DNA of 64,000 bases from Candidatus Thiodiazotropha sp. LNASS1 (GTDB lineage: Bacteria; Pseudomonadota; Gammaproteobacteria; Chromatiales; Chromatiaceae), in NCBI RefSeq assembly GCF_964212655.1, contig NZ_OZ156465.1, positions 3,286,001 through 3,350,000 of the forward strand, in the 5' to 3' direction. The position numbers were made by a program, and so were the translations under genes. Shown here one piece after another: positions 9,041 to 60,614 of the stretch. The number at the start of each line of letters is the position of its first letter. Position 1 is the first letter of the stretch. Below the pieces are notes generated by a model. The model had not been told where the DNA came from, ran no database searches, and worked only from the letters and a program-made list of their open reading frames with translations.

Positions 9041-10145
9041 ACCCCGGATTGCCTGTTTTCTGGCCACATCCGGATACAGTGGCGTGGACCGGCTTGCAAA
9101 AAATCTGCTACCGGGAATGGCGCAGGCAGGCCACCCGGTCGACCTTCTCAAGATTGGCAACCATGGCCCCTATCTCGATACACCTCTCAGAGAAAACTTA
9201 CAGGTTATCGAGTTCAATGCCCGGCATGTCTATACTGCACTGCCGGAACTATTGAGGTACTTGAAACGGGTTCGTCCCAATGTATTGTTGACCGACAAGG
9301 ACCGGGTCAACAGAACCGCCATATTTGCCCAGGCATTAAGCGGTGCCAAGACACGCCTTGTGGTTCGCAGTGGCACCACAGTCAGTGCCAATCTGGCCAG
9401 CAGAGGCCGTTTTGATCGTTTCGTGCAGCGCAATTCGATGCGCTATCTTTATCGACGGGCCGATGCCATTTTAACCCCGTCAAAAGGCGCGGCTGATGAC
9501 TTCGCTTCGACCATCGGTATACCCCGGGAACGGATATCCGCGGTGCCAAGTCCACTCATTACGCCTCAATTTATGCGTCAGTTGGATGAGCCCTTGGATC
9601 ACCCCTGGTTCGGGCCGGGAAAACCTCGGGTCATTCTGGGCGCAGGTGAACTATGCCGGCGTAAGGACTTCACAACCCTGATCCGGGCTTTTGCGCTTTT
9701 GCCCGAAAACTATGATTGTCGCTTGCTGATACTTGGCGAGGGGCGTGCCAGGACAAGGTTGGAACAGGAGATAGATCGACTTGGTCTTGGAGATCGAGTC
9801 AGCCTGCCTGGGTTTGTGGCCAATCCCTATCCATATATGAAACAGTCGTCTCTGTTCGTGCTCTCCTCATTATGGGAAGGGATGGGGAATGTACTCGTCG
9901 AGGCGATGGCCGCAGAAACACCGGTCATCTCCACAGACTGTCCCAGCGGCCCGGCGGAGCTGTTGGGCGGTTTATCCGGTGAGCTGTTGGTGGCGCCCGG
10001 CGATGCTCCCGGGTTGGCAGAAGCGATGGTGCGTCAACTGGACAATCCGCTTTCGAAATCCGAACTGCTGGCTGCGGTGGATTCCTATCGGCTGGAAAGC
10101 AGCGTCGCAGGCTATCTTGCCGCGATGGGGCTGCCGGTGGAGTGA
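9030..10145 (+). CDS. Glycosyltransferase family 4
   Basis: 371 residues, closely similar in layout to its upstream neighbour. SGYSGVDRLAKNLLPGMAQ is the N-terminal glycine loop, LGAGELCRRKDFTTLIRAF starts the donor domain, and LWEGMGNVLVEAMAAE holds EX7E, followed by STDCPSGPAELLGG. The start lies inside the 3' end of the preceding gene, indicating coupling. The two are probably an old tandem duplication that has diverged in acceptor specificity. Confidence 0.88.
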   Translation: MDNKPRIACFLATSGYSGVDRLAKNLLPGMAQAGHPVDLLKIGNHGPYLDTPLRENLQVIEFNARHVYTALPELLRYLKRVRPNVLLTDKDRVNRTAIFAQALSGAKTRLVVRSGTTVSANLASRGRFDRFVQRNSMRYLYRRADAILTPSKGAADDFASTIGIPRERISAVPSPLITPQFMRQLDEPLDHPWFGPGKPRVILGAGELCRRKDFTTLIRAFALLPENYDCRLLILGEGRARTRLEQEIDRLGLGDRVSLPGFVANPYPYMKQSSLFVLSSLWEGMGNVLVEAMAAETPVISTDCPSGPAELLGGLSGELLVAPGDAPGLAEAMVRQLDNPLSKSELLAAVDSYRLESSVAGYLAAMGLPVE

Positions 10146-14835: not shown

Positions 14836-14862
14836 CGATATGTCTCTTATGACCTAAGGCCA

Positions 14863-14875
14863 GTTAACAGGCCCT
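14863..14875. repeat. Solo end of AGGGCCTGTTAAC repeat
   Basis: GTTAACAGGCCCT matches the terminal inverted repeat of the large family described at 17361. It lies one base from the stop codon of the GT4 gene at 14877. No second arm is present nearby. Confidence 0.6.
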
Positions 14876-14876
14876 T

Positions 14877-16004
14877 TCAGGCCTTGGCAAGGCCCATGAT
14901 TTCCAGATAACGGCTGGCGCTCTGGTGGGCATTGTATTCCTGTACGGACTCGCGCAGAAGGGTTGACTCAGGCGGGTTGTCGAGCACGCGCTGCATGGCC
15001 TGGGAGAGCGCCTTCCAATCGCCGACCGGGACCAGTGGCGCAATGCGCCCCCGATCGAGCAGTTCACTCGGGCCGCTGGGGCAGTCGGTGGATACCACAG
15101 GGGTGCCCAGCGCCATGGCCTCGGTCAATACATTCGGAGAGCCTTCCCATCGGGAAGAGAGCACAAACAGATCGGCCCGTTTCATATAGCTATAGGGATT
15201 GGTGGTGAAACCGGGTAGCGCCAGCGCCTTACTGATGCCCAACTCATGACTTAGGGTGAGCAGGTTTTCCCGCTGGCGTCCGTCACCCAGGATGATGAGC
15301 CTGCAGGGCCGGTGTTTGCGAAGATCCGCAAAGGCGCGCAACAGGGTGGCGAAATCCTTCTGCAGCGTGAGACGCCCGACAGCGAGAATCAAGGGATCTT
15401 CGGACTCATTCTCCCAGGTGTGTGGTGCCGGAGCTGACGCCGCCTCTATCATGCGGGGTGTGATGACCGGGTTGCGGATCACGACAACCTTTTCCTGATC
15501 GACACCGGAAATCGCCAGGGTATCTTGCCTGACACCCTCGGATACCGCGATGATGCGGTCGATGTGGGGGTAGAGCAGGCGGATCGGCTGCTGACGTAAA
15601 AACAACCGCCAGCGTGACTTATGGGCGAATGCGGCAGTCAGATTGGTACCCAGGCGCAGTACCAGTCGGGTATTTGAAGCGCCCGCCAGGGCGCGGGCGA
15701 TGACCGCCATGCGTCCGGCCCTGTCCTTCGCCGCGAGCAGGCAGGGAGGCCGTATCCGTCTCAGATAGCGGGTGAGGGGTATGAGGCTGGTGGCGGTGTG
15801 ACGAGTACCCAGATCGATGCGGTTGACCGCGGGATGAATCTCATCCAGATGCCTGCTTCGGGTCTTGATCAGCAGCAGATCGATATGCAAGCCACGCTCG
15901 GCCAAGGCGTTCACAAGATTCAGCACCATGCGTTCCACACCACCCTCACCGGAGAATGATGCAAGAATCGACAGGTCCGGATGCACCTCAGCCTGCCTGC
16001 TCAT
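14877..16004 (-). CDS. Glycosyltransferase family 4
   Basis: 375 residues from ATG 16004, which follows GGGGAG; an in-frame ATG at 16061 would add 19 residues rich in charged and polar residues that match no part of the family. Motifs are SGEGGVERMVLNLVNAL (residue about 16), LAVGRLTLQKDFATLLRAF (donor domain), RWEGSPNVLTEAMALG (EX7E) and STDCPSGPSELLD. It is a third member of the subfamily at 7892 and 9030, on the opposite strand. The start overlaps the end of the O-antigen ligase gene by 17 nt, so the two are translated together. Confidence 0.88.
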   Translation of the reverse strand: MSRQAEVHPDLSILASFSGEGGVERMVLNLVNALAERGLHIDLLLIKTRSRHLDEIHPAVNRIDLGTRHTATSLIPLTRYLRRIRPPCLLAAKDRAGRMAVIARALAGASNTRLVLRLGTNLTAAFAHKSRWRLFLRQQPIRLLYPHIDRIIAVSEGVRQDTLAISGVDQEKVVVIRNPVITPRMIEAASAPAPHTWENESEDPLILAVGRLTLQKDFATLLRAFADLRKHRPCRLIILGDGRQRENLLTLSHELGISKALALPGFTTNPYSYMKRADLFVLSSRWEGSPNVLTEAMALGTPVVSTDCPSGPSELLDRGRIAPLVPVGDWKALSQAMQRVLDNPPESTLLRESVQEYNAHQSASRYLEIMGLAKA

Positions 16005-17355
16005 GTTCTCCCCGCCGTTTGGTCGGACGGTATGTTGCCAGTCCGAAGGCGAGCGTGGCACCGGCGATGATCAACCAGTAAAATCGCCAGTTCCAGTGCA
16101 GGTGTCTGAAGTCGGTCAGGCTATAGATAGCGATGAGCATAAAATTACTCATCAGGAATGCGAGAAAATAGATCGAGACTCTTTTCCGCCGGTAACTTTC
16201 CATCAGTTTAGAGATCATCACACCGCTGACCAGGGCTACCAGTACGATACCCAGCATACCCAGCTGAAAGACCACTTCCAGATAGGCGTTGTGAAGATGA
16301 TCGAAACTGGAACCCGGGGGATCTTGCAGGGCGATATCGTTTTCCGCCTCAACCAGGGCGTGGGTTGTGCCAGGACCCCATCCGAATAAGGGTCTCTCCA
16401 GCCATTTCCGCAAGCCGAACTGCCACAGATGGAGGCGATAGGAGGAAGAGCCCAAGGGGGCGTTTTCGAGCCCCTCGTTGACGATGGCGCTCCACTCGTT
16501 GCTTTCACTGGCGATGCGCTGGCTGATGGTGTTCCAGTTCACGCCGAGGATGACGGTGGCAACCACTATCAGACCGATAATAGGGTAGCGCAGCCGGATT
16601 GGACTGTGTTGACGGGGCGGGCCGGCAAAGCGCAGGGTCAAAAAGAGTATTGGCAGGGCAAACAGCATCGCCAGCCAGACCCCCCTGGACTGGCTGATGA
16701 TGAGACCCTGGGTGAAAAACAGTACGGCCAGCAGGGTCAGGCCCAAGCGCAATGCGACCCGCCGTCGGGTAGTGCCGTGTTTAGCGTCGATCCAGTACAT
16801 ACCCAGCGCCATTAAACCGAGTATCGCTGCAGCGCAGTCAAAACCCAAGATGATGGGCTTGCCGAAGTGGAGCCCTGTGCGTACGCCTTGTAAGGTCTGC
16901 GTCAGGGTTTCGCCATCCAGGGCTGTGATCATGCCAAGAGCGAATCCGCTGAACATCAGGGAAATGCTGATCGGGATGCGATAGGTCGATTGGCTTAACC
17001 ACCAGGCCGGAATAAAAAACAGAAACAGTTGAATCCAGTCCCTGGCCTGGTTCAACTGGGTCTTCTGTTCAGCGACGATCTCCCCGGTGGACCAGTAGGT
17101 GCGTACCAGGATATAGATGATGGCCAGGAGGCAGAGCCAGGTGATGGACTGGGACAAGAGGTTTCTCCATGCCTGCCTCGACAGCATCAAGCCGATAATC
17201 ATCAGGCCCAGCCCCAGATTGGCGCCCGCGATGCTCAACAGGGCGAAGAACGAGAACAGATAGAGGCCGATCAGGCCGATCCAGTTGCCGATCTGCTCAA
17301 ACTTTGTTGTAGGTGCGTGTATCGGGATAAGGCTTGCCCGAAATATCTCCAACAT
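15988..17355 (-). CDS. waaL: O-antigen ligase (Wzy_C/WaaL family)
   Basis: 455 residues with about ten or more hydrophobic helices from residue 25 on. The family signature lies in the large periplasmic loop: SQSRGVWLAMLF near residue 225 and RPLFGWGPGTTHALVEAE followed by FDHLHNAYLEVVFQLG. Members join undecaprenyl-linked O-antigen to lipid A-core, or polymerise O-units (Wzy), and the two are hard to separate by sequence. The neighbouring core glycosyltransferases favour a ligase. Its ATG is only 5 bp from the end of a palindromic repeat (17361-17627), so its transcript begins in or beyond that element. Confidence 0.8.
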   Translation of the reverse strand: MLEIFRASLIPIHAPTTKFEQIGNWIGLIGLYLFSFFALLSIAGANLGLGLMIIGLMLSRQAWRNLLSQSITWLCLLAIIYILVRTYWSTGEIVAEQKTQLNQARDWIQLFLFFIPAWWLSQSTYRIPISISLMFSGFALGMITALDGETLTQTLQGVRTGLHFGKPIILGFDCAAAILGLMALGMYWIDAKHGTTRRRVALRLGLTLLAVLFFTQGLIISQSRGVWLAMLFALPILFLTLRFAGPPRQHSPIRLRYPIIGLIVVATVILGVNWNTISQRIASESNEWSAIVNEGLENAPLGSSSYRLHLWQFGLRKWLERPLFGWGPGTTHALVEAENDIALQDPPGSSFDHLHNAYLEVVFQLGMLGIVLVALVSGVMISKLMESYRRKRVSIYFLAFLMSNFMLIAIYSLTDFRHLHWNWRFYWLIIAGATLAFGLATYRPTKRRGEHEQAG

Positions 17356-17360
17356 AACCT

Positions 17361-17627
17361 AGGGCCTGTTAACACTAATCCAATCGGCCCTGCTGGGACT
17401 ATTTTTTTGTCCAGCAAGGCAGAATGAGCGAGGTGTAGTTATGCTACATGAGCGAATGATAACGCCGCTGGGTGCAAAAACAGCCCCAGCCCTTCGGGTT
17501 GGGCCTGAAAAAGCGCCACTCGGCGTTGCTCGTCGTTCATTTGGAGTGACCAAACCTCTCTCCTCGCGCCTTGATTGGCGTTTTTTCAGGCCCAACAGGG
17601 CCCACCAGATTAGTGCTAACAGGCCCT
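17361..17627. repeat. Palindromic repeat family A, copy 1 (267 bp)
   Basis: Ends are AGGGCCTGTTAACACTAATC on the left and its imperfect complement ATTAGTGCTAACAGGCCCT on the right. Inside are nested hairpins: TGCTGGGAC/GTCCAGCA, TGTAG-TTATG-CTACA, GCTGGG/CCCAGC, CCC-TTC-GGG, and a long outer stem GCCTGAAAAAGCGCCA / TTGGCGTTTTTTCAGGC enclosing about 50 bp. No target-site duplication is evident, and no protein of its own. Frames inside it (for example 17441-17629) are by-products of the repeat. It separates waaL from the GT4 gene at 17642. Confidence 0.85.
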
Positions 17628-17641
17628 AGTACCTGTACAGA

Positions 17642-18730
17642 TCAATTTCTCAGACCGATCGCGCGGGCAATGCCTGCCGCTCTGTTGGTCCAACTGTAGG
17701 CAGCGGCATCCTGCCGCGCCTGCTGCGCAAGTTTAACTGCCAAGCGGTGATTGTGCATAAGTGTTTTTACCGCCACTTCCCAGGCTGCCGGGTCTTCCGG
17801 GGGCGCCAACAGAGCATTCCGGCCATGTTCCAGGATCTCTCTGATGGGCGGGATGTCGCTGGCGACAATCGCCCTACCCGCGGCCATGGCCTCGAACAGT
17901 TTCATCGGGCTGATCGCGTCGGCATGGCTCAATGACTGTTGGTAGGGCAGCACAACCAGCTCGCTCTCCGCATAGAGTGATGCCACCTCCCGGTGGGGAA
18001 CGGCTGGCTGGTGATGCAGATTGGGTAATTCCGTCAGTCGATCCTCGCAATCACCCACCAGGCGCACTTCGCCGCTGCCGCTCGCTGCCAAGTGGCTCAG
18101 GATCTGCAGGCCGCGATCCCTGCTGATTCTACCGAGATAGATGATCCTGGGTCTGGCGAGTCGTTCCGGCTCAAGGTCGGGGAGTTCCTCGAAGCGCCGC
18201 AAGTCGACGCCGGATGGGCTGACATGGATGCGCGTTTCATCGGCACCCGCGGCCACCAGGGCCGCCGCTGCGCTTTGGCTGATCGGAATCAGGCAACCGA
18301 TCAGTCTCCGGCGATGATAATCGATGATCTTGTCTAACATCCCCTTTTGATGCATCGGTTGCAGCGTGTGCACCTCGAAGTGGTGGGAAATACCCTGCGC
18401 GCCCAATCCCAGGCTAAGTTCGGGTGAGCGAACAAAGACCGCTCGAGCCCTGCGCAGCTGACGTTTATAGAAACGTGGGAAAAGTGATGTCGGCCAACGA
18501 CGGTGCAGTAGCTGAACACCCCGAATATCGGGTGTGTTCGAGATCCCCATCTCCTCGCATCGCTGCTGCGGGGTAACCGTCTTGTGCCAGGGAGGCAGGT
18601 AGAGCCGGGTCTTTACCCCGATTTCCGCCAGGGCGGCGACCGTATGTAAGGTCTGGATCAGATTGGCTCGGTTGCGGTGCAACCGGCTGCGGCCCAGATA
18701 GATCAGCTCGGGATTGTCGACTTTCTGCAT
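17642..18730 (-). CDS. Glycosyltransferase family 4
   Basis: 362 residues from ATG 18730; an upstream ATG at 18766 adds 12 residues and neither has a good ribosome site. PELIYLGRSRLHRNRANLIQ opens the acceptor domain, PISQSAAAALVAAGADETRI and VSPSGVDLRRFEEL the linker, IIYLGRISRDRGLQIL the donor domain, and DAISPMKLFEAMAAGRAIV carries the acidic motif. This subfamily differs from the three STDCPSGP enzymes. It sits between repeat copy 1 and a repeat remnant. Confidence 0.85.
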   Translation of the reverse strand: MQKVDNPELIYLGRSRLHRNRANLIQTLHTVAALAEIGVKTRLYLPPWHKTVTPQQRCEEMGISNTPDIRGVQLLHRRWPTSLFPRFYKRQLRRARAVFVRSPELSLGLGAQGISHHFEVHTLQPMHQKGMLDKIIDYHRRRLIGCLIPISQSAAAALVAAGADETRIHVSPSGVDLRRFEELPDLEPERLARPRIIYLGRISRDRGLQILSHLAASGSGEVRLVGDCEDRLTELPNLHHQPAVPHREVASLYAESELVVLPYQQSLSHADAISPMKLFEAMAAGRAIVASDIPPIREILEHGRNALLAPPEDPAAWEVAVKTLMHNHRLAVKLAQQARQDAAAYSWTNRAAGIARAIGLRN

Positions 18731-18799: not shown

Positions 18800-18831
18800 C
18801 AGGGCCGATTGGATGCATGTTAACAGGCCCT
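18800..18831. repeat. Right-end remnant of repeat family A
   Basis: AGGGCCGATTGGATGCATGT followed by TAACAGGCCCTG resembles the right end of copy 4 (GCCGATTGGATGAGCATTAACAGGCCCTG). It is followed by ACGGGACTAT, which looks like the left-interior GGGACTAT. This suggests an internal deletion that joined two ends. It lies in the divergent promoter region between the GT4 and GT9 genes. Confidence 0.65.
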
Positions 18832-18876: not shown

Positions 18877-19947
18877 GTGAAATTGTCTGATCTTGAGAAT
18901 CCGTCGATCCTGATCGTTCGCCTGAGTGCCATCGGTGATATCGTGTTTGCCACGCCTTTGATACATGCCATACGGCGCCGTTATCCAGAGGCGCGCATCA
19001 GTTGGCTGGTGCAGGCGGAATCGAAAGACCTCCTGGAGTGCCATCCGGAGTTGGACCAGGTTCTCGTCTGGCCGAGGCAGGCGTGGGAAAGTCATTGGAA
19101 AAAGCGACGTTGGCTGGATCTGTGGCAGGCGATCCGTCAATTCAGACAATTATTAAAGGTGCATCGTTTCGATGTGGCGCTGGATGTGCAAAGTTTGATG
19201 AAAAGTGGCTTTCTGACCTGGTTGTCAGGTGCCGAACACCGTATCGGTCTGGGTTCCAGGGAGGGTAGTCAGTGGCTGATGGATCAGGTCATAGCGAAGG
19301 GCGGGGAGCCAACGCGCATCGCATCTGAATATCACCACTTCGCCCAGCAGCTCGAACTGCCTGTGGATGAGTTCGAGATGCACATCGGTCTGAGTGATGA
19401 GGATAACTCCCAGGCGGATGCCTTGCTGACGGCACATGGACTTGAGCGGGGTTTCATCGCGATCTGTCCTTTCACCACCCGGCCGCAAAAGCACTGGTTC
19501 AACAGTTCCTGGAATGAGTTGCTGGCTGCAGTCGGGCAGCGATGGCAGTTGCCCGTAGTCATGCTGGGTGGGCCGGGTGACAGGTCATCTTCATTGGCGA
19601 TTGGAGAGAGGAATCAGGAGAGTCTGATTAATTTGACTGGTGAAACAACCCTGCGCCAGGCGGCCGCCCTGATCAGAAGGGCCAAGCTGATAATCGGCGT
19701 CGATACTGGTTTGACCCATATGGGGATAGCAATGAATCGTCCCACTCTCTGCCTGTTTGGATCGACCCGGCCCTACCTCGATACAACGCACGATAATGCT
19801 GCAGTGATCTATCATCCACGGCAATGCTCACCCTGTAAACGCAAACCCACCTGTAACGGATCATTCGACTGTATGCGGGATATCAAAGTCACGGAGGTGA
19901 TGCGTCACGCGTCCCGCCTGGCCGGACTCGATGGGAGGGTGAGGTGA
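18877..19947 (+). CDS. Lipopolysaccharide heptosyltransferase (GT9)
   Basis: 356 residues, start GTG 18877. VRLSAIGDIVFATPLIHAIR near residue 14 is the family N-terminus, followed by FDVALDVQSLMKSG. CPFTTRPQKHWF near 198 and GVDTGLTHMGIAMNRPTLCL near 278 are the ADP-heptose site. GT9 enzymes add L-glycero-D-manno-heptose to Kdo or heptose of the inner core. It is WaaC- or WaaF-like; the sequence alone does not settle which acceptor. hldE at 26921 makes the donor. The stop overlaps the next gene's GTG start (GTGA). Confidence 0.92.
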   Translation: MKLSDLENPSILIVRLSAIGDIVFATPLIHAIRRRYPEARISWLVQAESKDLLECHPELDQVLVWPRQAWESHWKKRRWLDLWQAIRQFRQLLKVHRFDVALDVQSLMKSGFLTWLSGAEHRIGLGSREGSQWLMDQVIAKGGEPTRIASEYHHFAQQLELPVDEFEMHIGLSDEDNSQADALLTAHGLERGFIAICPFTTRPQKHWFNSSWNELLAAVGQRWQLPVVMLGGPGDRSSSLAIGERNQESLINLTGETTLRQAAALIRRAKLIIGVDTGLTHMGIAMNRPTLCLFGSTRPYLDTTHDNAAVIYHPRQCSPCKRKPTCNGSFDCMRDIKVTEVMRHASRLAGLDGRVR

Positions 19948-21044
19948 GGGTTCTGCACATCGAGGCGGGGATGCATCTCTATGGTGGTGCCAGGCAGGTC
20001 GTTTATCTGTTGTCTGGCCTGCAGCACCATGGTATTGAATCACACTTGGTCTGCCCGCGTGGTAGTGCGGTGGCGGAGGCGGTACGCGAGATTGGCGTTA
20101 CGGTGGAGGAGATACCCATGGGCGGGGATCTCGATTTGGGGCTGATTTTTCGCCTCAAACGCGCCATCCAAGGCGCTACCCCCGATCTGGTGCATATTCA
20201 CAGTCGACGCGGAGCCGATATCCTGGGTGGAGTTGCGACACGCCTGTGCGGGATCAAATCAGTACTGTCACGACGAGTCGACAACCCCGAGCATCCGGTG
20301 TTGGTGATGGCGAAATATCGCCTCTATGATCGTGTAATCGCCATATCTCAGGGTATTGCCGATGTCTTGAGCGAGGAGGGCGTGCCGGCGGAAAAGCTGG
20401 TCTGCGTACGTAGTGCCGTTGACGTGGATCTCTATCAGCAGCACTGTGACAAGGCCGGGTTCAGTGCGCAGTTTGATCTGGCCGAGGATGCCTTGGTCAT
20501 GGGTGTGGCTGCACAATTGATACCCCGCAAGGGGCATCGTTATCTGTTGCATGCACTGCCGAGGCTGATACAGTCATTTCCTCATCTGCATCTGCTGGTG
20601 TTCGGCAAGGGGCCGTTGCGTGAGGTGCTTGAACAGCAGATAGAGGCATTGCAGCTCCAACAGCATGTGACCTTGGCCGGTTTTCGCGATGATCTGCCAC
20701 AGCTCCTGCCCTGTCTCGACCTGTTGGTGCATCCAGCCTTGATGGAGGGATTGGGTGTTGCCTTACTGCAGGCGGCAAGTGCCGGCCTGCCCATCGTGGC
20801 AGTTGAAGCAGGCGGTATGCCGGAGGCGGTTGAGGATGGGGTGAACGGTTTGTTGGTGCCGCCGGGCAGTGATGAGGCCTTGGCTGACGCAATCCATCAG
20901 TTGCTGGATAACGAGGAGCTGCGCCGGCGGATGGGTGAGTCCGGCAGGGAGAAGATGCGGCGCGGATTTTCCGTGGAGCAGATGGTGTTGGGGAATCTGG
21001 CTGTCTATCGGGATCTGTTGGATCTCCCTGAGGTGACGGGTTAG
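19944..21044 (+). CDS. Glycosyltransferase family 4
   Basis: 366 residues, GTG start coupled to the heptosyltransferase stop. AGMHLYGGARQVVYLLSGL is the acceptor loop, HIHSRRGADILGGV follows, AAQLIPRKGHRYLLHALPRL starts the donor domain. In MEGLGVALLQAASAG the second glutamate of EX7E is glutamine, a variant that occurs in some GT4 branches. It probably adds an outer-core or O-chain sugar. Its TAG stop lies inside a solo repeat end (21043-21061). Confidence 0.87.
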   Translation: MRVLHIEAGMHLYGGARQVVYLLSGLQHHGIESHLVCPRGSAVAEAVREIGVTVEEIPMGGDLDLGLIFRLKRAIQGATPDLVHIHSRRGADILGGVATRLCGIKSVLSRRVDNPEHPVLVMAKYRLYDRVIAISQGIADVLSEEGVPAEKLVCVRSAVDVDLYQQHCDKAGFSAQFDLAEDALVMGVAAQLIPRKGHRYLLHALPRLIQSFPHLHLLVFGKGPLREVLEQQIEALQLQQHVTLAGFRDDLPQLLPCLDLLVHPALMEGLGVALLQAASAGLPIVAVEAGGMPEAVEDGVNGLLVPPGSDEALADAIHQLLDNEELRRRMGESGREKMRRGFSVEQMVLGNLAVYRDLLDLPEVTG

Positions 21045-21061
21045 GGCCTGTTAGCACTAAT
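21043..21061. repeat. Solo left end of repeat family A
   Basis: AGGGCCTGTTAGCACTAAT matches the left terminal repeat with one change. It begins within the stop codon of the upstream GT4 gene and ends one base before the ATG of the next, so the entire intergenic space is repeat sequence. Confidence 0.75.
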
Positions 21062-22179: not shown

Positions 22180-22333
22180 GCCGCGAATAAACGCCAATCA
22201 CCGCAAGTTATCGCAAATGGTCTAACACTCTCCCGGAGGGAGAGGAAGTTAACGGGAAAGCCGCGAGTTTTGTATTGCAATGAACTGCTGACTTTATTCT
22301 CATTGCAGATAATTTGCGTTTATTTGCGGTTTG
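22180..22333. repeat. Palindromic repeat family B (AATAAACGC type)
   Basis: Left arm AGCCGCGAATAAACGCCAAT plus CACCGCAAGTTATCGCAAATGG; right arm ATTTGCGTTTATTTGCGGTTTG at 22312-22333 in opposite orientation. The same two arms recur at 53605-53778. The element fills the space between two convergent genes and might stop or buffer transcription. Confidence 0.7.
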
Positions 22334-22356
22334 TTCTTCCAAAGTTCAATCCCAAA

Positions 22357-30140: not shown

Positions 30141-31406
30141 ATGCGGTATCTGTATACACTCATTTTTACACTGCTGGTCCCGGTCTATTTCCTGCGGCTC
30201 TATTGGCGGGGTTTCAGGGCGCCTGCCTACAGGCAGCGTTGGCTGGAGCGATTGGGTATTTTCGATACACCTATTGAGCAGGGCGGTATTTGGGTGCATG
30301 CGGTTTCGGTGGGTGAGGTGCTTGCCGTTGCCCAACTGGTCGGGCGTCTTCTTGACCGCTACTCCGACTTGCCTTTGCTTATAACCACCACCACACCCAC
30401 CGGCGCGGACCGGGTCAAGGCACTGTTTGGCAATGATGTGACTCACCTCTATGCGCCGATCGATCTGCCGTGGGTGGTAAAGCGCTTTTTGACGGCTTTC
30501 CAGCCCCGGCTGCTGATACTGGTGGAGACAGAGATATGGCCCAATCTGATCTGCCACGCCAAACTCGAGGGTGTGCCTACTTTGCTTGCCAATGCCAGAC
30601 TTTCAGTTAGGTCTGCCCAGGGCTATCATCGGGTCGCAGGCTTGACTCGTGAGGCATTGCGTAATCTTACCGTGATTGCCCCTCATGCGGAGGCGGATGC
30701 AGAGCGTTTTCATACGCTGGGTGCTAAACCCGACAAGATCGAGGTGACGGGGAGTATCAAGTTCGATGTGCATCTGCCGGGGAGTCTGTTGGAGCGGGTC
30801 GATGTGTTGCGGCGTGAGTGGGGAGGGCAACGACCGGTATGGATCGCAGCAAGTACCCATGAGGGTGAAGATGAGTTGATATTGCAGGCGCACGCCACCG
30901 TTCAACAGCATCTTCCCGAAGCGCTGTTGGTTTTGGTCCCCCGCCATCCCGAACGATTCGAACGGGTTGGACATCTGGCTGAAGAGGCTGGTTTTAAACT
31001 CGTAAAGCGTACTCAGCAACGACCCTGCGATAATGATACAGCCGTCTTTCTTGGTGACACAATGGGTGAGTTAACCCTTTTCCTGGGCGCATCGGACGTA
31101 GCTTTCATCGGTGGCAGCCTGGTCCCCCACGGCGGCCACAATATACTGGAGGCGACCGCCCAAGGTGTCGCTGTTGTGTTTGGTCCTCATATGTTCAACT
31201 TCAGTGAAATCAGCGAGCTGTTTCTTCAACACCAGGCAGCGGTTCAGATCGATTCCGCCGAGGCGCTGGCCGATCAGGTGAGCCGTTGGCTCAGTGACGC
31301 CAGTGAACGTAGTCGTGTGGGTGAAGCGGGCAGGGAGTTGGTGGAGCAGAACCGCGGTGCGCTGGATCGTTTGACCCAGCTTGTGGACAGGCTGCTGGTG
31401 AGCTGA
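30141..31406 (+). CDS. waaA: 3-deoxy-D-manno-octulosonic acid transferase
   Basis: 421 residues. It transfers Kdo from CMP-Kdo to lipid IVA. The N-terminus is a membrane anchor (TLIFTLLVPVYFLRLYW), followed by WVHAVSVGEVLAVAQLV, TTTTPTGADRVKALFG and LVETEIWPNLICHAK. The donor domain has ASTHEGEDELIL, LVPRHPERFERV and FIGGSLVPHGGHNILEATA. Start is 21 nt after msbA. A repeat element begins 5 bp after its stop. Confidence 0.95.
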   Translation: MRYLYTLIFTLLVPVYFLRLYWRGFRAPAYRQRWLERLGIFDTPIEQGGIWVHAVSVGEVLAVAQLVGRLLDRYSDLPLLITTTTPTGADRVKALFGNDVTHLYAPIDLPWVVKRFLTAFQPRLLILVETEIWPNLICHAKLEGVPTLLANARLSVRSAQGYHRVAGLTREALRNLTVIAPHAEADAERFHTLGAKPDKIEVTGSIKFDVHLPGSLLERVDVLRREWGGQRPVWIAASTHEGEDELILQAHATVQQHLPEALLVLVPRHPERFERVGHLAEEAGFKLVKRTQQRPCDNDTAVFLGDTMGELTLFLGASDVAFIGGSLVPHGGHNILEATAQGVAVVFGPHMFNFSEISELFLQHQAAVQIDSAEALADQVSRWLSDASERSRVGEAGRELVEQNRGALDRLTQLVDRLLVS

Positions 31407-31411
31407 GTGTT

Positions 31412-31640
31412 AGGGCCTGTTAACACTAATCCAATGCACCCTGTTGTGCCTGAAAAAGCGCCAATCAAGGCGCACCCCAAGGGCACTTCCTTCGGGGCGC
31501 AACCCGAAGGGCTGGGGCTGTTTTCGCCCCCAGCGGCGTTATCATTCGCTCATGTAGAATAACTACACTACGCTCATTCTGCCTTGCTGGGCACAAAAAC
31601 AACCCCAGCAGGGCGTATTGGATTAGTGTTTACAGGCCCT
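31412..31640. repeat. Palindromic repeat family A, copy 2 (229 bp, inverted)
   Basis: Ends AGGGCCTGTTAACACTAATC and ATTAGTGTTTACAGGCCCT. The interior runs opposite to copies 1, 3 and 4. It keeps the CCAGCAAGGCAG, TGTAG-loop-CTACA, GCTGGG and GCCTGAAAAAGCGCCAA modules. It lacks the CGTTGCTCGTCG/ATTTGGAGT segment. In its place is a hairpin ACCCCAAGGGCACTTCCTTC-GGGG that is shared only with copy 3. It lies between the convergent waaA and mscS-type genes, where its stems could act as a two-way terminator. Confidence 0.85.
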
Positions 31641-31643
31641 AGT

Positions 31644-33401
31644 TCACGATATGGGCGGAAAGACCACAGGCGGTGGCTTGGTGCCGGTACCTGTAGTCTC
31701 TGCAACAATGGATTTGGCGTAGGATTGGCCCAGTGCAAAGGCCTGCTGCTGATCCATCTCAGATATTGAGTCGGCGGTCTCATCCTCTTTCTTCATATAG
31801 AGGGTTTGGGTGGGGAAAGCGAATTCAATCCCCAGTCTTTGCGCCAGGCGCAATATATCGAGCATAAAGCGATGTCGTTCCCGCAGTTCGGTATTCCATT
31901 CCGGCGTCTCCCAAAAGACATACAGCAGCACATCGAGAGATGAAGCGGCAAATTCATTCAGATAGGCATGGTAGTAGTCCTTGCGCATATACGGATGCTG
32001 CCTTACCAACTCTCTGACTCCTTCGCAAAACGCCTCGATACGATCGGGTGGTGTGTCATAGGTGAGTGACAACTTGCACGATAGGCGTCGATAGCGTCGC
32101 TCACCCATGTTGTCCACCGTGGCGGTTATGAATTTGGAGTTGGGTACCGTCACCACCGAATTGTAGAAGGTCCTGACCCGGGTACTGCGAAACCCGATTC
32201 GTTCGACGGTTCCCTCCACATCGTCGACAACGATCCAGTCACCTACGGAAAAGGTGCGGTCCATCAGCACTGTTACCGAACCGAACAGATTCTGCACCAT
32301 ATCTTTTGCCGCCAGGGCAAATGCCAGACCACCCAGCCCGAGGCCTGCCAGCAGACTCGATATGTCGATATTCAGGTTGTCGGCAATGAATACAAAGCCG
32401 ATTACTGTGATGAATACCTTGAGGGTGCGGGGTATAAGCGGAACCAGTGCGTCATCCAGTTTGTTGGCTGACAGCTCTGCCTGTTTGTGCAGATAAGCAG
32501 AGACCAGGTCGACCAGTCGATAGGCGGCCCATACCCCGGAGATGCTGGCCAGGAACTTTACCGCCAACAGCAACACCAGCATGACACTTTCGGGCAGGCC
32601 CATCAGGTTGATGCTGCCCCACCAGACGATAGCCATCGCCATCAGACCGAGGGGGCGTAAGATATCCTCTGATATCTCTTTGAACTCGTCATGGCGGGTG
32701 CCTTTGCGCCAGCGGCGAACGCTGGTTTTGAGGAAGAATGTGATGAGCTTGTCGATGATAACGCCGGCCAGGATTGTCAGTAGAAGACCGATCCATTGCC
32801 AGTTTTGCAGCAGGAAAGTGGATTGTTTCAGTGGTAGGGGCACCTTTTGCCGCAAGCGGATATGCCAGGGGACATATGAGGCTTCATCGTCCTTACCACT
32901 GACACGTTCTGTGGTTGCGACTTCATCCATGATGAGCGGCAGGCTGTTGATTGTATTGCGATCGAAAAGCCATCGTCCGGAATCGGTGCGGGAAATGGCC
33001 ACCTCACCTCTCTCATAGCGCTTGAACAGATACCTCGATCCATCGACACGATTAGGTATCTTTTCAACATCGATGATCTTTGTGCGATCGAGCACCTCCA
33101 GCAGCATCCAGGCCAGATCCTGTCCCCGCTCTTTTCTCACGATTGGGTTGATGTCGGAAAGATCGAGGGTGGATACCGCCTCCTCTATTCTGTCCGGCGC
33201 GCCACGTTTGATATCGTTCATTGCATGGAGGAAGGTCTCCATGGTGGCGCGGGGGGATTTCAGGTTTTCCGGAACGGCCTCCTTGGTGCTGACTTCTGGA
33301 TCTGACGTCTTTTCCGAAGCCTGCTCAGCCCAGCCTGAATCTGCCGCAGTGAGCAGAATTACGATTAAAATCAATTGCTGCCATATGTTTTTAAAGTGCA
33401 T
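31644..33401 (-). CDS. MscS-family mechanosensitive channel with long N-terminal domain
   Basis: 585 residues from ATG 33401; the frame is open five codons further, but this start gives a proper signal peptide (LILIVILLTAADSGWA). Residues about 25-180 are a periplasmic domain. Hydrophobic helices lie about 190-370, and the MscS pore and beta domain about 370-540, with GLGGLAFALAAKDMVQNLFG and RTFSVGDWIVVDDVEGTVE. It should open under membrane tension and release osmolytes. It is longer than E. coli MscS (286 residues) and shorter than MscK. The C-terminal tail after 540 is polar. Confidence 0.9.
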   Translation of the reverse strand: MHFKNIWQQLILIVILLTAADSGWAEQASEKTSDPEVSTKEAVPENLKSPRATMETFLHAMNDIKRGAPDRIEEAVSTLDLSDINPIVRKERGQDLAWMLLEVLDRTKIIDVEKIPNRVDGSRYLFKRYERGEVAISRTDSGRWLFDRNTINSLPLIMDEVATTERVSGKDDEASYVPWHIRLRQKVPLPLKQSTFLLQNWQWIGLLLTILAGVIIDKLITFFLKTSVRRWRKGTRHDEFKEISEDILRPLGLMAMAIVWWGSINLMGLPESVMLVLLLAVKFLASISGVWAAYRLVDLVSAYLHKQAELSANKLDDALVPLIPRTLKVFITVIGFVFIADNLNIDISSLLAGLGLGGLAFALAAKDMVQNLFGSVTVLMDRTFSVGDWIVVDDVEGTVERIGFRSTRVRTFYNSVVTVPNSKFITATVDNMGERRYRRLSCKLSLTYDTPPDRIEAFCEGVRELVRQHPYMRKDYYHAYLNEFAASSLDVLLYVFWETPEWNTELRERHRFMLDILRLAQRLGIEFAFPTQTLYMKKEDETADSISEMDQQQAFALGQSYAKSIVAETTGTGTKPPPVVFPPIS

Positions 33402-33760
33402 GTTCCCACAACTCATTTTCTGTAATTGGCGGCTATTTTAGGGTCGAAACAGAAAATATTCATCCAATGCGTGGATTAAGTTCCCGCAATCGATGCCGAT
33501 ATCAAGTATGAAACTTCGGGATTGATCTCGTAGGGTCTGCCGGAAGCCCTCATGTGGATACCATCAAGGAAGGTTTTTATTGAGTTTGAGTCAGCTATGC
33601 CCGTGATGGAGTGTGATGGAGCACGATGGTGGTGACCATCGCTATTGCATAAGCCCGAGAGCGGACACTGACCGGAGCCCCGTAGGTTGTAGTTTCAATC
33701 AGATCTCATCTTGCTCTGTAGCATGATTACTACAGTCAGTGAAATTGCAGGGGGGTTGAT
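33402..33760. other. Divergent intergenic region
   Basis: 359 bp between the MscS-type and FMN-protein genes. It holds a small perfect stem CGATGGT-GGTG-ACCATCG at 33624-33641, preceded by the short direct repeat GTGATGGAG / GTGATGGAG. GGGGGG at about 33750 is the ribosome site for the next gene. No gene was found. Confidence 0.4.
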
Positions 33761-38101: not shown

Positions 38102-38467
38102 TTATCTGGCTGTTCTTTTCTTACGTGGCGTCACTTTCCTGGGACGCGCAGGTCTCTTCTTAGCGACCTTCTTTTTAGTTGCCTTTTTCTTAGCAACCTT
38201 CTTCTTTGCGACCTTCTTCTTGGTTGCCTTCTTCTTGGCCACCCTCTTTTTGGTTGTAGCTTTCTTTTTAGCTACCCGTTTCTTTGCTGTCTTTTTGGCA
38301 ACTCTCTTTTTGGTTGCCACCTTCTTCTTCGTGACTTTCTTCTTGGCTGCGACTCTCTTCTTAGTCGTTGCCTTCTTCTTGGCGACCCTTCTCTTTGCGG
38401 GTGCCTTCTTGGTTGTGGTTGAACGTCTAACAGTTGCCTTCTTTTTGGCGGCCTTTTTCTTCGCCAT
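38102..38467 (-). CDS. Histone H1-like, lysine/alanine-rich DNA-binding protein
   Basis: 121 residues made almost only of Lys, Ala, Arg, Val and Thr, with no acidic residue. It is a string of KKxAxKK pentapeptide-like repeats (VAKKKATKKKVAKKK-type), ending in a Pro/Arg segment RPARPRKVTPRKK. It resembles the C-terminal tail of eukaryotic H1 and bacterial AlgP/Hc1-like proteins that bind DNA without strict sequence preference. GGGAGG lies 8 nt before ATG 38467, a TATACT -10 box is at 38514-38509, and a terminator follows. Slippage between repeats could change its length. Confidence 0.85.
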   Translation of the reverse strand: MAKKKAAKKKATVRRSTTTKKAPAKRRVAKKKATTKKRVAAKKKVTKKKVATKKRVAKKTAKKRVAKKKATTKKRVAKKKATKKKVAKKKVAKKKATKKKVAKKRPARPRKVTPRKKRTAR

Positions 38468-39273: not shown

Positions 39274-39461
39274 GACATCCCCCACCTGTGCCGTCGCAAA
39301 CCGCTGTTCTTGAACCAGAGGGTTCAAGTGGGAACAACAGAAGAGCTTCAGGCTTCCCGCTAGGATGCGGACATGCACACCGGCCCTTTCATCATGCTCC
39401 CTGGGTAGATGTTAGGCTCAAGAAAATACCCTGGTTGCTTACGAACACCGCAGGGGATGTC
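39274..39461 (-). ncRNA. ssrS: 6S RNA
   Basis: About 188 nt on the minus strand, 5' end near 39461-39467. The closing stem pairs GACATCCCC (39461-39453) with GGGGATGTC (39282-39274). Recognisable 6S elements follow in order: GGTGTTCGTAAGC near the 5' end, TTGAGCC, and near the 3' side the hairpin CTTGAACCCTCTGGTTCAAG, which matches the E. coli TTGAACCAAGGGTTCAA arm. 6S RNA mimics an open promoter and holds sigma70 polymerase in stationary phase. Position between zapA and fau is the conserved gammaproteobacterial one. Confidence 0.9.
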
Positions 39462-40032: not shown

Positions 40033-40099
40033 GGCCAACAATATAGTGGTCAGATACTGGCGGGTCAATCTCTACATCTGCATGTTATGATTTGTTTCT

Positions 40100-40395
40100 A
40101 GGGCCTGCTAACACTAATTTGATTGTCACTGCCAAGACCCTGTTTTTTATCCAGCAAGGCAGAAGGAGCGTTGTGTAGTGGATCTACATATGCGACCGAT
40201 AACACCGCTGGGTAAAAAACAGGGCCCTGGCCCATCGGGTTAAGCCCCGAAGGAAGTGCCCTTGGGGTACGCCTAAAAAAGCGCCGCCCGGTATTACTCG
40301 TCACATATTTGGAGTCACCAAATAACGCTCCTCGTGACTTGAATGGCGCTTTTTCGAGTGCCACAGTGGCAATCAAATTGGTATTAACAGGCCCT
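40100..40395. repeat. Palindromic repeat family A, copy 3 (296 bp)
   Basis: Ends AGGGCCTGCTAACACTAATT and TTGGTATTAACAGGCCCT. It is the longest copy and holds both interchangeable modules: the CCCCGAAGGAAGTGCCCTTG-GGG hairpin of copy 2 and the TACTCGTCACATATTTGGAGT segment of copies 1 and 4. Bases differ from copies 1 and 4 at many positions, so it is an older or separate subtype. It occupies the divergent gap between the coiled-coil/zapA genes and ygfB. Confidence 0.85.
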
Positions 40396-40416
40396 TAATC
40401 ATAGAGGAAAATGTAA

Positions 40417-44728: not shown

Positions 44729-44794
44729 AGGACCTGTTAACACTTACCCATTAGTCGCTGCTACAACCCTGCAAATTAGGTCTGAACAGGCCCT
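44729..44794. repeat. Deletion derivative of repeat family A (66 bp)
   Basis: AGGACCTGTTAACACTTACC at the left and TTAGGTCTGAACAGGCCCT at the right keep both ends, but only about 25 bp of interior remain. It separates ubiI from the glycine riboswitch. Confidence 0.7.
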
Positions 44795-44910
44795 GGGTGA
44801 CAGCTGTCGAAGTTGCTTGCAAACCCTTGATCGGTGGTGAAACGGGACCGCCTATAAGGTTTTTCGCGATTGGCAAGCGGTTTGCGGCAAGGTATAGTCG
44901 TCATCTCGAT

Positions 44911-45173
44911 CCACCCCCGTGGGAGAGGCCGGCCCAAGCCGGCGCCGAAGGCGCAATCCCGCCCGGAATCGCTCAGGCAAAAGGACCGTGGGGGGGAAGT
45001 CACCCTGTAAAGGTCAACCAACGGGGGATTTAGGTCGACTCTGGAGAGCGGTGTGACAACACCCACCGAAGGGGCAGGCGCTCTATAGTGCTGTTTGGAC
45101 AGGCGGTAAATAGTGATTATCACCATGCCGAAACAAACAACAACGGCGCCAAACTCTCAGGTTTTGGACAGAG
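44911..45173 (+). ncRNA. Tandem glycine riboswitch
   Basis: Aptamer 1 runs about 44911-44996: GGGAGAGG, GCCGAAGGCGCAA and CGCTCAGGCAAAAGGACCG are near-consensus, with a C5/G5 P1 stem. Aptamer 2 runs about 45039-45173: CTCTGGAGAGCGG, CACCGAAGGGGCA, and far downstream ACTCTCAGGTTTTGGACAGA. Its P3 arm (GGCGC/GCGCC, 45077-45150) is enlarged by roughly 60 nt. Glycine binding should favour gcv expression, since P1 of aptamer 2 (CTCTG/CAGAG) touches the terminator stem. It controls gcvT-gcvH-gcvPA-gcvPB. Confidence 0.92.
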
Positions 45174-45212
45174 GGGCGGCGCGGATGGGTATTCATCCGC
45201 GCCGCCCCTTTT
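45173..45212 (+). terminator. Riboswitch-controlled intrinsic terminator before gcvT
   Basis: A perfect 15-bp stem, GGGGCGGCGCGGATG (45173-45187) with CATCCGCGCCGCCCC (45194-45208), loop GGTATT, then TTTT. Only 24 bp separate it from gcvT. The first G is shared with the aptamer 2 P1 arm, consistent with mutually exclusive pairing. Confidence 0.9.
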
Positions 45213-45236
45213 CACGTTTTGGACCTGGAGAAGGCA

Positions 45237-46328
45237 ATGACTAAGCAGACTGTACTTTACGCTACGCACCAGGCAATGGGGGCCCGACTGGTTCCTTTCG
45301 GCGGTTGGGATATGCCTTTGCACTATGGTTCCCAATTGGAGGAGCATCATCAGGTGCGGCGTGACGCGGGTATGTTCGATGTATCGCATATGACGGTGGT
45401 CGATATCAAAGGCGATGGTGTTAATCCACTTTTACGCTATCTGTTGGCCAACGATGTGGATAAGCTGAAGCAAAAGGGCAAGGCCCTCTACACCTGTATG
45501 CTCAACGATACGGGTGGCGTGGTGGATGACCTTATCGTCTACTATCTGCATGACAGCTGGTATCGCCTGGTGGTGAATGCAGGCACCACGGAGAAGGACC
45601 TGGCATGGTTGGCGCAGAAATCCGAAACCTACGATGTGAACATCACACCCCGTCGCGATCTCGCCATGATCGCAGTACAGGGTCCCAATGCGCGATCAAA
45701 AGCGCTGCCACTGATGTCCGACATTCTGCGCCAGGCAGGCGCTGACCTGAAACCGTTCAATGCGGTTACCGATGGCGATTGGTTCCTGGCCCGAACCGGT
45801 TATACCGGTGAAGACGGTTTTGAGATCATGCTGCCAGGTGATCAGGCGGCACCCTTTTGGCGGCAATTGCACGATGCGGGTGTTGAGCCATGTGGGCTTG
45901 GTGCTCGGGACACACTGCGTCTGGAAGCAGGTATGAATCTATATGGCTCCGACATGGACGAGGAGACCTCGCCCCTGGAATCCGGGCTCGGTTGGACCAT
46001 CGCCTGGGACCCGTCGGAACGCGATTTTGTCGGCAGATCAGTGCTGGAGCGACAGCGCAATGATCCGAATAGGCGGCGTTTCATCGGTTTGGTATTGACC
46101 GGACGTGGGGTACTGCGTAACCATTTGAAGCTGTACGATGCCGAGAGAGAGGTCGGTGAGATCACCTCCGGTGGATTTGCCCCAACATTGGAGCGATCCA
46201 TTGCTTTTGCCCGGGTCCTGCCCGATATCGGTGAGACCTGCGAGGTTGAAATGCGTGGAAAACGGCTCAAGGCGCAAGTGGTCAAACCGCCCTTTGTACG
46301 CAACGGCAAGGCCGTCATCGACTTATAA
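45237..46328 (+). CDS. gcvT: Glycine cleavage T protein (aminomethyltransferase)
   Basis: 363 residues from ATG 45237, preceded by GGAGAAGG. It moves the methylene group from lipoyl-bound aminomethyl to THF and releases ammonia. [20 protein letters not shown] near residue 15, [32 protein letters not shown] near 180 and [20 protein letters not shown] (folate site) are conserved. It is the first gene of the riboswitch-controlled operon. Confidence 0.96.
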
Positions 46329-49734: not shown

Positions 49735-49970
49735 TTTAGTCCGCAAATGAACACAGACTAATGCAAATGATTCTGTGTGTTTTATTAGTCCGCCAATGAA
49801 CGCAAATAAACGCGAATCCAGATAGATAATCCTCGTTCCCACGCTCCTGCGTGGGAATGCCTACATCAGGTTGGGTGGTCTGGCTGAGGGATTCGACATG
49901 GTATGCATTCCCACGCGGAGCGTGGGAACGAGAATACGCAAATAAACGCGAATCCAGATAGATTCAAGCT
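49735..49970. repeat. Composite intergenic repeat: REP-like pair inside direct repeats
   Basis: Two arms, CTCGTTCCCACGCTCCTGCG with TGGGAATGC (49832-49860) and GCATTCCCACGCGGAGCGTG with GGAACGAG (49905-49932), form one large inverted pair, each arm itself a hairpin. They are flanked by a direct repeat ACGCAAATAAACGCGAATCC-AGATAGAT at 49800-49827 and 49936-49963. The flanks belong to family B. The stretch to 50121 holds no gene. Confidence 0.8.
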
Positions 49971-60284: not shown

Positions 60285-60287
60285 CCT

Positions 60288-60555
60288 AGGGCCTGTTAAC
60301 GCTCATCCAATCGGCTCTGCTGGGACTATTTTTGTCCAGCAAGGCAGCAGCATGAGCGATGTGTATGTGTTCTACATGAGTGAATGATAACGCAGCTGGG
60401 CGGAAAAATAGACCCAGCCCTTCGGGTTGCGCCTGAAAAAGCGCCACTCGGCGTTGCTCGTCGTTTATTTGGAGTTACCAAACCTCTCTCCTCGCGCCTT
60501 GATTGGCGTTTTTTCAGGCGCAACAGAGCCGATTGGATGAGCATTAACAGGCCCT
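60288..60555. repeat. Palindromic repeat family A, copy 4 (268 bp)
   Basis: Ends AGGGCCTGTTAACGCTCATC and GATGAGCATTAACAGGCCCT. The interior is collinear with copy 1 and differs by scattered substitutions; the two share the long run around TCGGCGTTGCTCGTCG and TTTGGAGT. The outer stem reads GCGCCTGAAAAAGCGCCA / TTGGCGTTTTTTCAGGCGC, with paired changes relative to copy 1 (GGGCC to GCGCC). It lies between coq7 and glcF. Confidence 0.88.
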
Positions 60556-60614
60556 GAAAACATAGCTTTTTTCTTCAATGGGATACAGCTGTAGTCAGTA
60601 ATCCTTTTAGCGCA

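Follow-up and report, generated by a model that had tools for sequence, protein, structure and literature searches.

Repeats with long inverted ends that recur in a 64,000-nucleotide stretch (the window) of the chromosome of the clam symbiont Candidatus Thiodiazotropha form one family of TA-flanked non-autonomous elements, to which the large copies, a 66-bp derivative and the so-called solo ends all belong. Judged from comparisons of DNA sequence, the element behaves as a TA-targeting MITE: it is multicopy and short (typically 267 bp), both ends are AGGGCCTGTTAACA or close variants thereof within an outer arm of about 32 bp, copies are flanked by TA while an empty site is available from a genome of the same species, and an autonomous partner with the same ends occurs in a sister genus. 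We therefore consider it very probable that these are MITE-type DNA elements with IS5-family ends, a YTAR/TA target, a transposase acting in trans and a conserved cloverleaf interior, whose copies undergo exchange and collapse. The common view of MITEs is that they are deletion remnants of a single insertion sequence and do not persist for long. New in this family is a covarying pair of inverted hairpins with near-fixed geometry, which is found across classes and behind different ends. Such a distribution points to selection on the interior and thus to a function of the DNA or RNA fold, which may lie in non-autonomous transposition or in persistence, and the element gives the impression of a structured genome parasite with a wide distribution.

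Copies, ends and target sites

Every feature that the first-pass annotation had named, from the near-complete copies to the 66-bp derivative and the solo ends, was found in the window where it had been placed, with the sequence as described (Table 1). Within the window, the terminus occurs 19 times with up to three mismatches, compared with 4.04 expected, and none of 100 shuffles reached 19. A covariance model of the internal hairpin has eight matches there, seven of them strong, all of which lie inside the four elements. The 17361 copy, whose longest contained mechanical ORFs encode 78 and 62 aa, is too short to carry a transposase, and the element gives no indication of encoding a protein.

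Table 1. Elements, hairpin modules, inserts and remnants in the window (H, hairpin module; bit scores from the covariance model).
Feature	Position	Strand	Basis
Element 1, full two-hairpin, TA to TA (A..T part 17361-17627, 267 bp)	17360..17628	.	sequence
Element 1, H1	17392..17490	+	80.5 bits
Element 1, mini-hairpin CCTTCGG, 7 nt, between H1 and H2	17491..17497	.	sequence and family geometry
Element 1, H2, inverted relative to H1	17498..17596	-	95.6 bits
Element 2 (A..T part 31412-31640, 229 bp): one intact H, one degenerate H, 27-bp hairpin insert	31411..31641	.	sequence, covariance model
Element 2, intact H	31511..31609	-	85.3 bits
Element 2, degenerate partner H	31443-31533		16.3 bits
Element 2, nested palindromic insert CCCCAAGGGCACTTCCTTCGGGG, core of 27-bp module	31475..31497	+	sequence
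Element 3 (A..T part 40100-40395, 296 bp): two H, one 27-bp insert; right TA now TT	40099..40396	.	sequence, covariance model
Element 3, H1	40131..40230	+	75.3 bits
Element 3, H2	40266..40364	-	49.0 bits
Element 3, nested palindromic insert	40245..40267	-	sequence
Element 4 (A..T part 60288-60555, 268 bp): two H; right TA now TG	60287..60556	.	sequence, covariance model
Element 4, H1	60319..60418	+	58.8 bits
Element 4, H2	60426..60524	-	93.7 bits
66-bp derivative without H; equal length in same-species genome G163	44729..44794	.	sequence, covariance model
22-bp near-palindrome TAAGGCCAGTTAACAGGCCCTT, 3 mismatches to the 22-bp scar (solo end)	14855..14876	.	sequence
Right-arm remnant AGGGCCGATTGG..TGTTAACAGGCCCT; form of the 31-bp G163 allele of L046 (solo end)	18801..18831	-	sequence
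Left-end remnant TAGGGCCTGTTAGCACTAAT, adjoining stop of ORF 19944-21044 (solo end)	21042..21061	+	sequence

The wider search for copies that had been proposed together with these coordinates showed that the 4.75-Mb host chromosome matches the 17361 copy at 40 or more places (BLAST; a lower bound, as 40 of 148 candidates were scored); the 40100 copy is not among the matches listed. With up to two mismatches, a 14-mer of the terminus is found 149 + 146 times in the host genome, compared with 12 + 8 times for the reversed control. The element is present in all 20 same-genus genomes searched and is carried by 28 of 56 genomes overall (host included). Of the 210 genomes of the order, 54 contain the exact 15-mer end. 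Elements of 266-270 bp that are flanked by TA and have the same or a near-identical end were found in Porticoccaceae, Zooshikella, Agaribacterium, Exilibacterium, Mariprofundaceae and Cellvibrionaceae. The same-species genome G163 possesses 84 + 80 exact ends and at least 150 module matches, many of them at contig ends, versus 55 + 44 and 76 in the host, which points to a large within-species difference in copy number or in preservation.

The element boundaries can be written as Y-TA, GGGCCTGTTAACA...TGTTAACAGGCCC, TA-R. TA is found on both flanks at 30 of the 31 host loci L016-L046, with L046 lacking the right TA. Within the window, this rule is hidden because three copies have altered flanks, namely TT on the right at 40100, TG on the right at 60288, and CA on the left and TG on the right at 44729. 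The first-pass annotation had seen no consistent target-site duplication and considered ordinary MITE transposition not obvious; the first statement is wrong and the second is not borne out, since TA stands at both ends of the copies and the site of L019 is empty in G163 with a single TA, which identifies TA as the duplicated target. Among 202 distinct two-ended sites, which were picked for TA on both sides, Y precedes the left TA in 199 and R follows the right TA in 191, and palindromic scars have Y on the left together with R on the right in 117 of 126 cases.

The comparison with G163 covered 37 host sites (35 elements and two scars), and both flanks were found at 30 of them and not at the other seven. 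The G163 allele has equal length within 1 bp at 14 of these 30 sites, two of which are 20-bp scars, and differs by 27 or 54 bp at four more; at L028, a differently arranged element, which matches better in reverse, lies between the same flanks. Internal deletions in G163 were seen at four sites (L038, L046, L022 and the 31412 copy), and two comparisons (L027 and L043) are uninterpretable. The element is missing from G163 at five sites: the clean single-TA site L019 is the only fully clean one, L045 is near-clean, and L023, L024 and L042 are imprecise.

A candidate autonomous partner

A transposase with matching ends, which the first-pass annotation had suggested looking for, was found in the sister-genus genome G128 and not in the host. 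It is encoded by an 810-bp element, which has the identical 17-bp outer end GGGCCTGTTAACACTAA on either side and shares the TA flanks, but which differs from the MITE in carrying a transposase in two overlapping frames and no hairpin module. The frames score 75.8 bits with DUF4096 and 50.7 bits with DDE_Tnp_1, and the two halves reach 99.3 and 104.2 bits against the NCBIfam IS5-family model NF033580, the whole-protein cut-off of which is 110. These family scores, spread over two overlapping frames, assign the partner to the IS5 family, and we take it to belong to the IS427-like group. Relatives of the first frame were detected in 26 of the 210 genomes of the order at E<=1e-10; among these genomes, neither the host nor G163 has such a relative at this threshold, and a profile search of the host genome did not find DUF4096. 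Furthermore, G012, a genome of the same genus, contains a relative that is degenerate, measures about 620 bp and has near-matching ends, and G147 contains 818-bp relatives with variant ends. The hairpin model has no match in five of these IS loci (L056, L110, L101, L124 and L097).

Since the ends of the element match those of an IS5-family element, mobilization in trans, as the first-pass annotation had proposed, is probable; the TA target and the same-species empty site are in line with it. An IS5-family transposase supplied in trans would have cut and pasted the elements into YTAR sites, thereby duplicating TA. Against this stands the host genome, in which no transposase of the G128 kind was found, so that mobility there today is only a possibility.

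The hairpin module and the cloverleaf interior

The interior of the element is a conserved cloverleaf; its stems covary, and its core is the more conserved part. Most 269-bp elements (counted from TA to TA) are predicted to consist of a stem of 32, a hairpin of 99, a mini-hairpin of 7, a second hairpin of 99 and again a stem of 32 nucleotides. The two 99-nt hairpins of an element are homologous and in inverted orientation; each strand thus contains one sense copy, and the element may work in either orientation. A few elements are predicted to fold otherwise, among them the 17361 copy, for which the best RNAfold structure is one long hairpin instead of a cloverleaf and in which 17 of 23 H1 stem pairs are formed, compared with a perfect 23 of 23 in the G163 allele. 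This copy folds far better than shuffled sequences, with z values of -10.5 as RNA and -7.3 as DNA. The module is exactly 99 nt long in 59 of 75 unique modules (range 97-103), and the boundaries of the fold recur, give or take a few bases, in elements of Achromobacter, Pusillimonas and Variovorax as well as in the first hairpin of Roseateles. The cloverleaf interior is also found in Beta- and Zetaproteobacteria. GTDB places the betaproteobacteria inside the Gammaproteobacteria, and our search of the class followed GTDB.

A consensus hairpin was derived from an alignment of 32 modules, and its helix 1 comprises 16 pairs. Changes on both sides were found in 21 of the 23 consensus pairs, a count that taken alone was reached by 30 of 500 shuffles, while the other measures of covariation were reached by none. 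Paired cells amount to 95.2%, compared with 60.7% in shuffles and 40-48% when the partners were slid by 1-3 columns. In a position-based analysis of 269-bp elements, the stem regions of eight clusters are 67-86% Watson-Crick paired, compared with 21-37% after sliding. The core of the module reads roughly CAAGGCGC...stem-loop...GCAACGCCG. Across 36 units, each taken from a different genome, the mean pairwise identity is 0.63 for the 53-nt core and 0.47 for the 21-nt stem arm; the value for the core is biased upward, because the units were found with the model and placed at their best offset to a typed consensus.

Compensatory changes could also arise without functional selection, by gene conversion or by template switching that corrects palindromes. 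It is conceivable, though fairly unlikely, that the element is an ordinary MITE, the interior of which consists of insertion sequence debris and chance palindromes and keeps its structure through palindrome-correcting replication errors or gene conversion rather than through function. A conversion-like tract and the changed interiors at identical sites, both described below, reveal homogenizing forces that are able to make arms complementary. Against this reading stand a core that is more alike than the stem arm (with the upward bias mentioned above), a nearly fixed module length, modules behind other terminal repeats, and the partner IS loci, in which the model has no match.

Stem mismatches provide a hint as to the strand on which the structure acts. 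Neutral transitions in a DNA palindrome should give G.T and A.C mismatches in equal numbers, and an excess of one of them points to a strand. In sense orientation, 75 related units contain 87 G.U and 28 A.C mismatches, or 39 and 16 when distinct contexts are counted; in 21 stem clusters, the numbers are 18 and 11, a difference that is not significant (p=0.26). In 36 units from separate genomes, which were oriented by the core and from which the outer 18 bases were excluded, 29 G.U mismatches stand against eight A.C mismatches (p=0.0008). This set leaves out L303, which is truncated, L319, a short locus, and L317, L318 and L322, the genomes of which already contribute another locus; neither the oriented nor the unoriented count includes edge loci or repeats of already-used genomes. 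An unoriented count of 41 units (20 G.U versus 25 A.C) was set aside, as minus-strand matches had not been turned in it. The excess of G.U suggests a role of the single strand, as RNA or single-stranded DNA, and this evidence is modest because the model that finds the units slightly rewards G.U. Most likely, the hairpin would act in single-stranded form, arising when neighbouring genes are transcribed or replicated.

The module is also encountered behind other ends. The covariance model, which could be used directly for genome annotation, matches 89 genomes in a sample of 274 from the class, about a third (own genome included; E<=1e-4 and stricter filters); it also matches all 21 chosen carrier genomes, which were picked as carriers and thus do not constitute a control. 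In 99 other loci (769 kb), seven matches were obtained at six places, four of which are new: at L224, L271 and L235, the module lies inside TA-ended inverted repeats of other sequence, and at L253 it adjoins a standard right end at the edge of the locus. From the matches of the class search, 29 loci were taken, of which six near a contig edge were skipped; a TA-flanked inverted repeat surrounds the module in 19 of the 23 examined, and the remaining four have none by this test. In five of the 19 (L323, L326, L343, L347 and L348), the ends are unlike GGGCCTGTT, and their true outer limits may be missed. Besides these five and L224, L271 and L235, L313 has the module in TA-flanked repeats of other sequence. 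Compared with the usual 266-270 bp, repeats of 288 bp were found in Peristeroidobacter, 183 bp in Pusillimonas, 162 bp in Herbaspirillum and NORP163, and 337 bp in G128. Based on these loci, the hairpin module appears not to be tied to one set of ends. It is tempting to speculate that the 99-nt module is a selfish structured nucleic acid, which is carried by inverted repeats (in full-length elements as an inverted pair and hence on both strands), swaps terminal repeats, parasitizes different IS5-type transposases in about a third of the class and in Zetaproteobacteria, and acts through its sense strand as RNA or single-stranded DNA; we put this forward tentatively, as a possibility of slightly less than even chance.

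Inverted pairs of homologous hairpins and tolerance of G.U pairs are shared with the GTAG and CGTC families of REP/BIME sequences, and the two hairpins of the element resemble head-to-head REP dimers (PMC3733652). A REP/BIME-like nature of the element, with incidental TA ends and mobilization by a REP-associated tyrosine transposase that acts on hairpins in single-stranded form, is nevertheless extremely unlikely. In the excerpted account of PMC3733652, REP units measure 20-40 bp and have a tagged end, stems of 5-13 bp and loops of 2-20 nt, whereas the module spans 99 nt with a long outer stem and with 16 pairs in helix 1 of the consensus; the same excerpt describes no TA-duplicating terminal repeats of the DDE type, whereas the element duplicates TA on insertion and its ends match a DDE-type insertion sequence.

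That the hairpins might act as RNA or DNA structures had already been suggested in the first-pass annotation. As to conserved structure, this interpretation agrees with the data presented here, and any function is a prediction; its idea of mobilization in trans likewise stood, its denial of a target-site duplication did not, and it had overlooked that the hairpins are inverted homologues, that the geometry is by no means limited to the genus and that solo ends resemble deletion products. A known Rfam RNA was ruled out for the tested copies: no family of Rfam 15 reaches its gathering score on the element in the window, and searches of 12 element loci gave nine matches, all below gathering and six of them to microRNA families. 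The only RNAs of the window that reach gathering are 6S and two glycine riboswitch aptamers. The 6S/SsrS gene is located at 39275-39459 (-; 96.4 bits), and the tandem aptamers at 44910-45181 (+) precede the gene for the glycine-cleavage T-protein (45219-46328); the 66-bp derivative lies about 115 bp upstream of the aptamers.

Exchange, decay and genomic context

When the copies at one site are compared between genomes, they are found to differ in 27-bp hairpin inserts, in a replaced interior and in large internal deletions. Exchange with other copies and collapse through deletion between short repeats would explain these differences. In its first 60 bases, the 17361 copy has 12 differences from the G163 allele, and 59 of 60 bases match the reversed L017 copy; this one tract suggests gene conversion between dispersed copies. 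Orthologous sites differ by gain or loss of the 27-bp palindromic insert, which in the window occurs only inside these elements and is possibly a nested mobile palindrome. It has two different points of entry into the large element (31475-31497 and 40245-40267; L040, L041, L042 and L052).

At one site, alleles of three lengths were found between flanks that are 94-99% identical: a 269-bp allele (L062) and a 70-bp allele (L061), each from a different genome of one genus, and a 22-bp allele present in two tubeworm-symbiont bins (L221 and L269). The 70-bp allele retains both arms of the 269-bp allele and has lost both hairpins. At another site, the host allele measures 296 bp, that of G163 269 bp and that of T. 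endolucinida 22 bp. As the end contains the palindrome TGTTAACA, the inverted ends are at the same time direct repeats, and slippage between them would leave exactly a 20-bp palindrome, or 22 bp with both TAs. The host has 17 such 20-bp palindromes with up to three mismatches, compared with none in the control. Solo ends and 20-bp palindromes look like products of internal deletion, and a decay path from 269 via 70 to 22 bp would explain the orphan palindromes of many genomes. The exact 22-bp palindrome, which represents two overlapping ends, is present in 116 stretches of a species-level genome collection; the carriers include, by record title, gamma- and betaproteobacteria, a Mariprofundaceae bin, which we take to be a zetaproteobacterium, and one Acidobacteriaceae bin. 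This spread across many Proteobacteria would also be expected if the short palindromes themselves were the mobile or functional unit, for instance a protein-binding operator, from which the long elements grew. Among the places listed for Variovorax paradoxus ISL-79, there are more palindromes than long two-ended elements, and one scar site of T. endolucinida lacks the scar in G163, with an indel in the adjacent flank. We consider such growth very unlikely, as one and the same site can be found in a long, an intermediate and a short state and a 70-bp allele with both arms and excised hairpins fits deletion better than growth.

Several insertions are located at the ends of genes. The TA of a stop codon is split by nine of 35 insertions, as judged from mechanically called ORFs, compared with 14 of 236 YTAR sites of the window (Fisher p 0.0008; the two ORF rules differ slightly). 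A further eight of the 35 are at most 25 bp away from the 3' end of a called ORF, and seven lie inside called ORFs, some of which are possibly spurious. Since the element starts with G, insertion into TAG or TAA restores TAG, and insertions of this kind would be nearly silent. The bias can reflect selection against other insertions instead of targeting. Of the copies in the window, element 1 lies between two genes on the minus strand, coding for an O-antigen ligase-like protein and a glycosyltransferase, element 2 is flanked by the convergent ORFs 30141-31406 (+) and 31644-33416 (-), and element 4 is 3 bp away from the start of the COQ7-like ORF 59640-60284 (-). Around the 17361 copy, three terminator-like sites were detected in 17200-17800, compared with 0.7 expected. 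These sites, the proximity of insertions to stop codons and ORF ends and the tolerance of G.U on one strand would suit a module that serves the host as a 3'-UTR or terminator RNA, is spread by transposition and is retained for protection or processing of mRNA ends. This explanation is unlikely, as the copy is internally deleted at four and missing at five of the 30 sites comparable in G163, and purifying selection on a TA-targeting element could account for the stop-codon bias equally well.

Among described repeats, RUP, ERIC and Correia/NEMIS come close to the MITE presented here, as they are small, lack a transposase, possess terminal inverted repeats and TA ends and give rise to strongly folding transcripts; for RUP, mobilization in trans by an IS630 transposase has been proposed (PMC2229807). 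In the excerpt of that source, they measure about 100-200 bp and are described from particular genera or families, whereas the element has about 267 bp, IS5-family ends and a two-module cloverleaf of near-fixed geometry that occurs across classes and with different terminal repeats; the distinction is drawn from TA ends, size and structure as described in this excerpt and not from the terminal-repeat sequence. QMITE elements of Coxiella are MITEs with stable folded transcripts and many truncated, palindrome-like copies; in the excerpted description, QMITE2 is flanked by direct repeats of 7-9 bp instead of TA, and paired inverted homologous hairpins are not part of it (PMC10969869). The CIR repeats of Caulobacter share a two-armed RNA structure with a linker, but are set apart, in the relevant excerpt, from repeats that pair their 5' with their 3' end, and their mechanism of mobility is unsettled (PMC2229807). 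A literature search with the exact 13-letter terminus gave no match, and motif strings retrieved only papers on oilseed rape and zebrafish; a description of the element was not found in the accessible part of the MITE and REP literature, a scope beyond which lie ISfinder and most subscription journals.

The window contains further repeats. The arms of an inverted repeat pair of 143 nt (9820-9962 and 15060-15202) are 71% complementary and lack the ends of the cloverleaf family. A 121-aa ORF (38102-38467, -) without a Pfam match runs over tandem repeats of a 60-nt family (D2), and its lysine-rich product is presumably histone H1-like. Finally, identical 28-bp direct repeats are located at 49800-49827 and 49936-49963, with starts 136 bp apart, and part of the surroundings of the second one matches 22312-22347 in inverted orientation with 75% identity.
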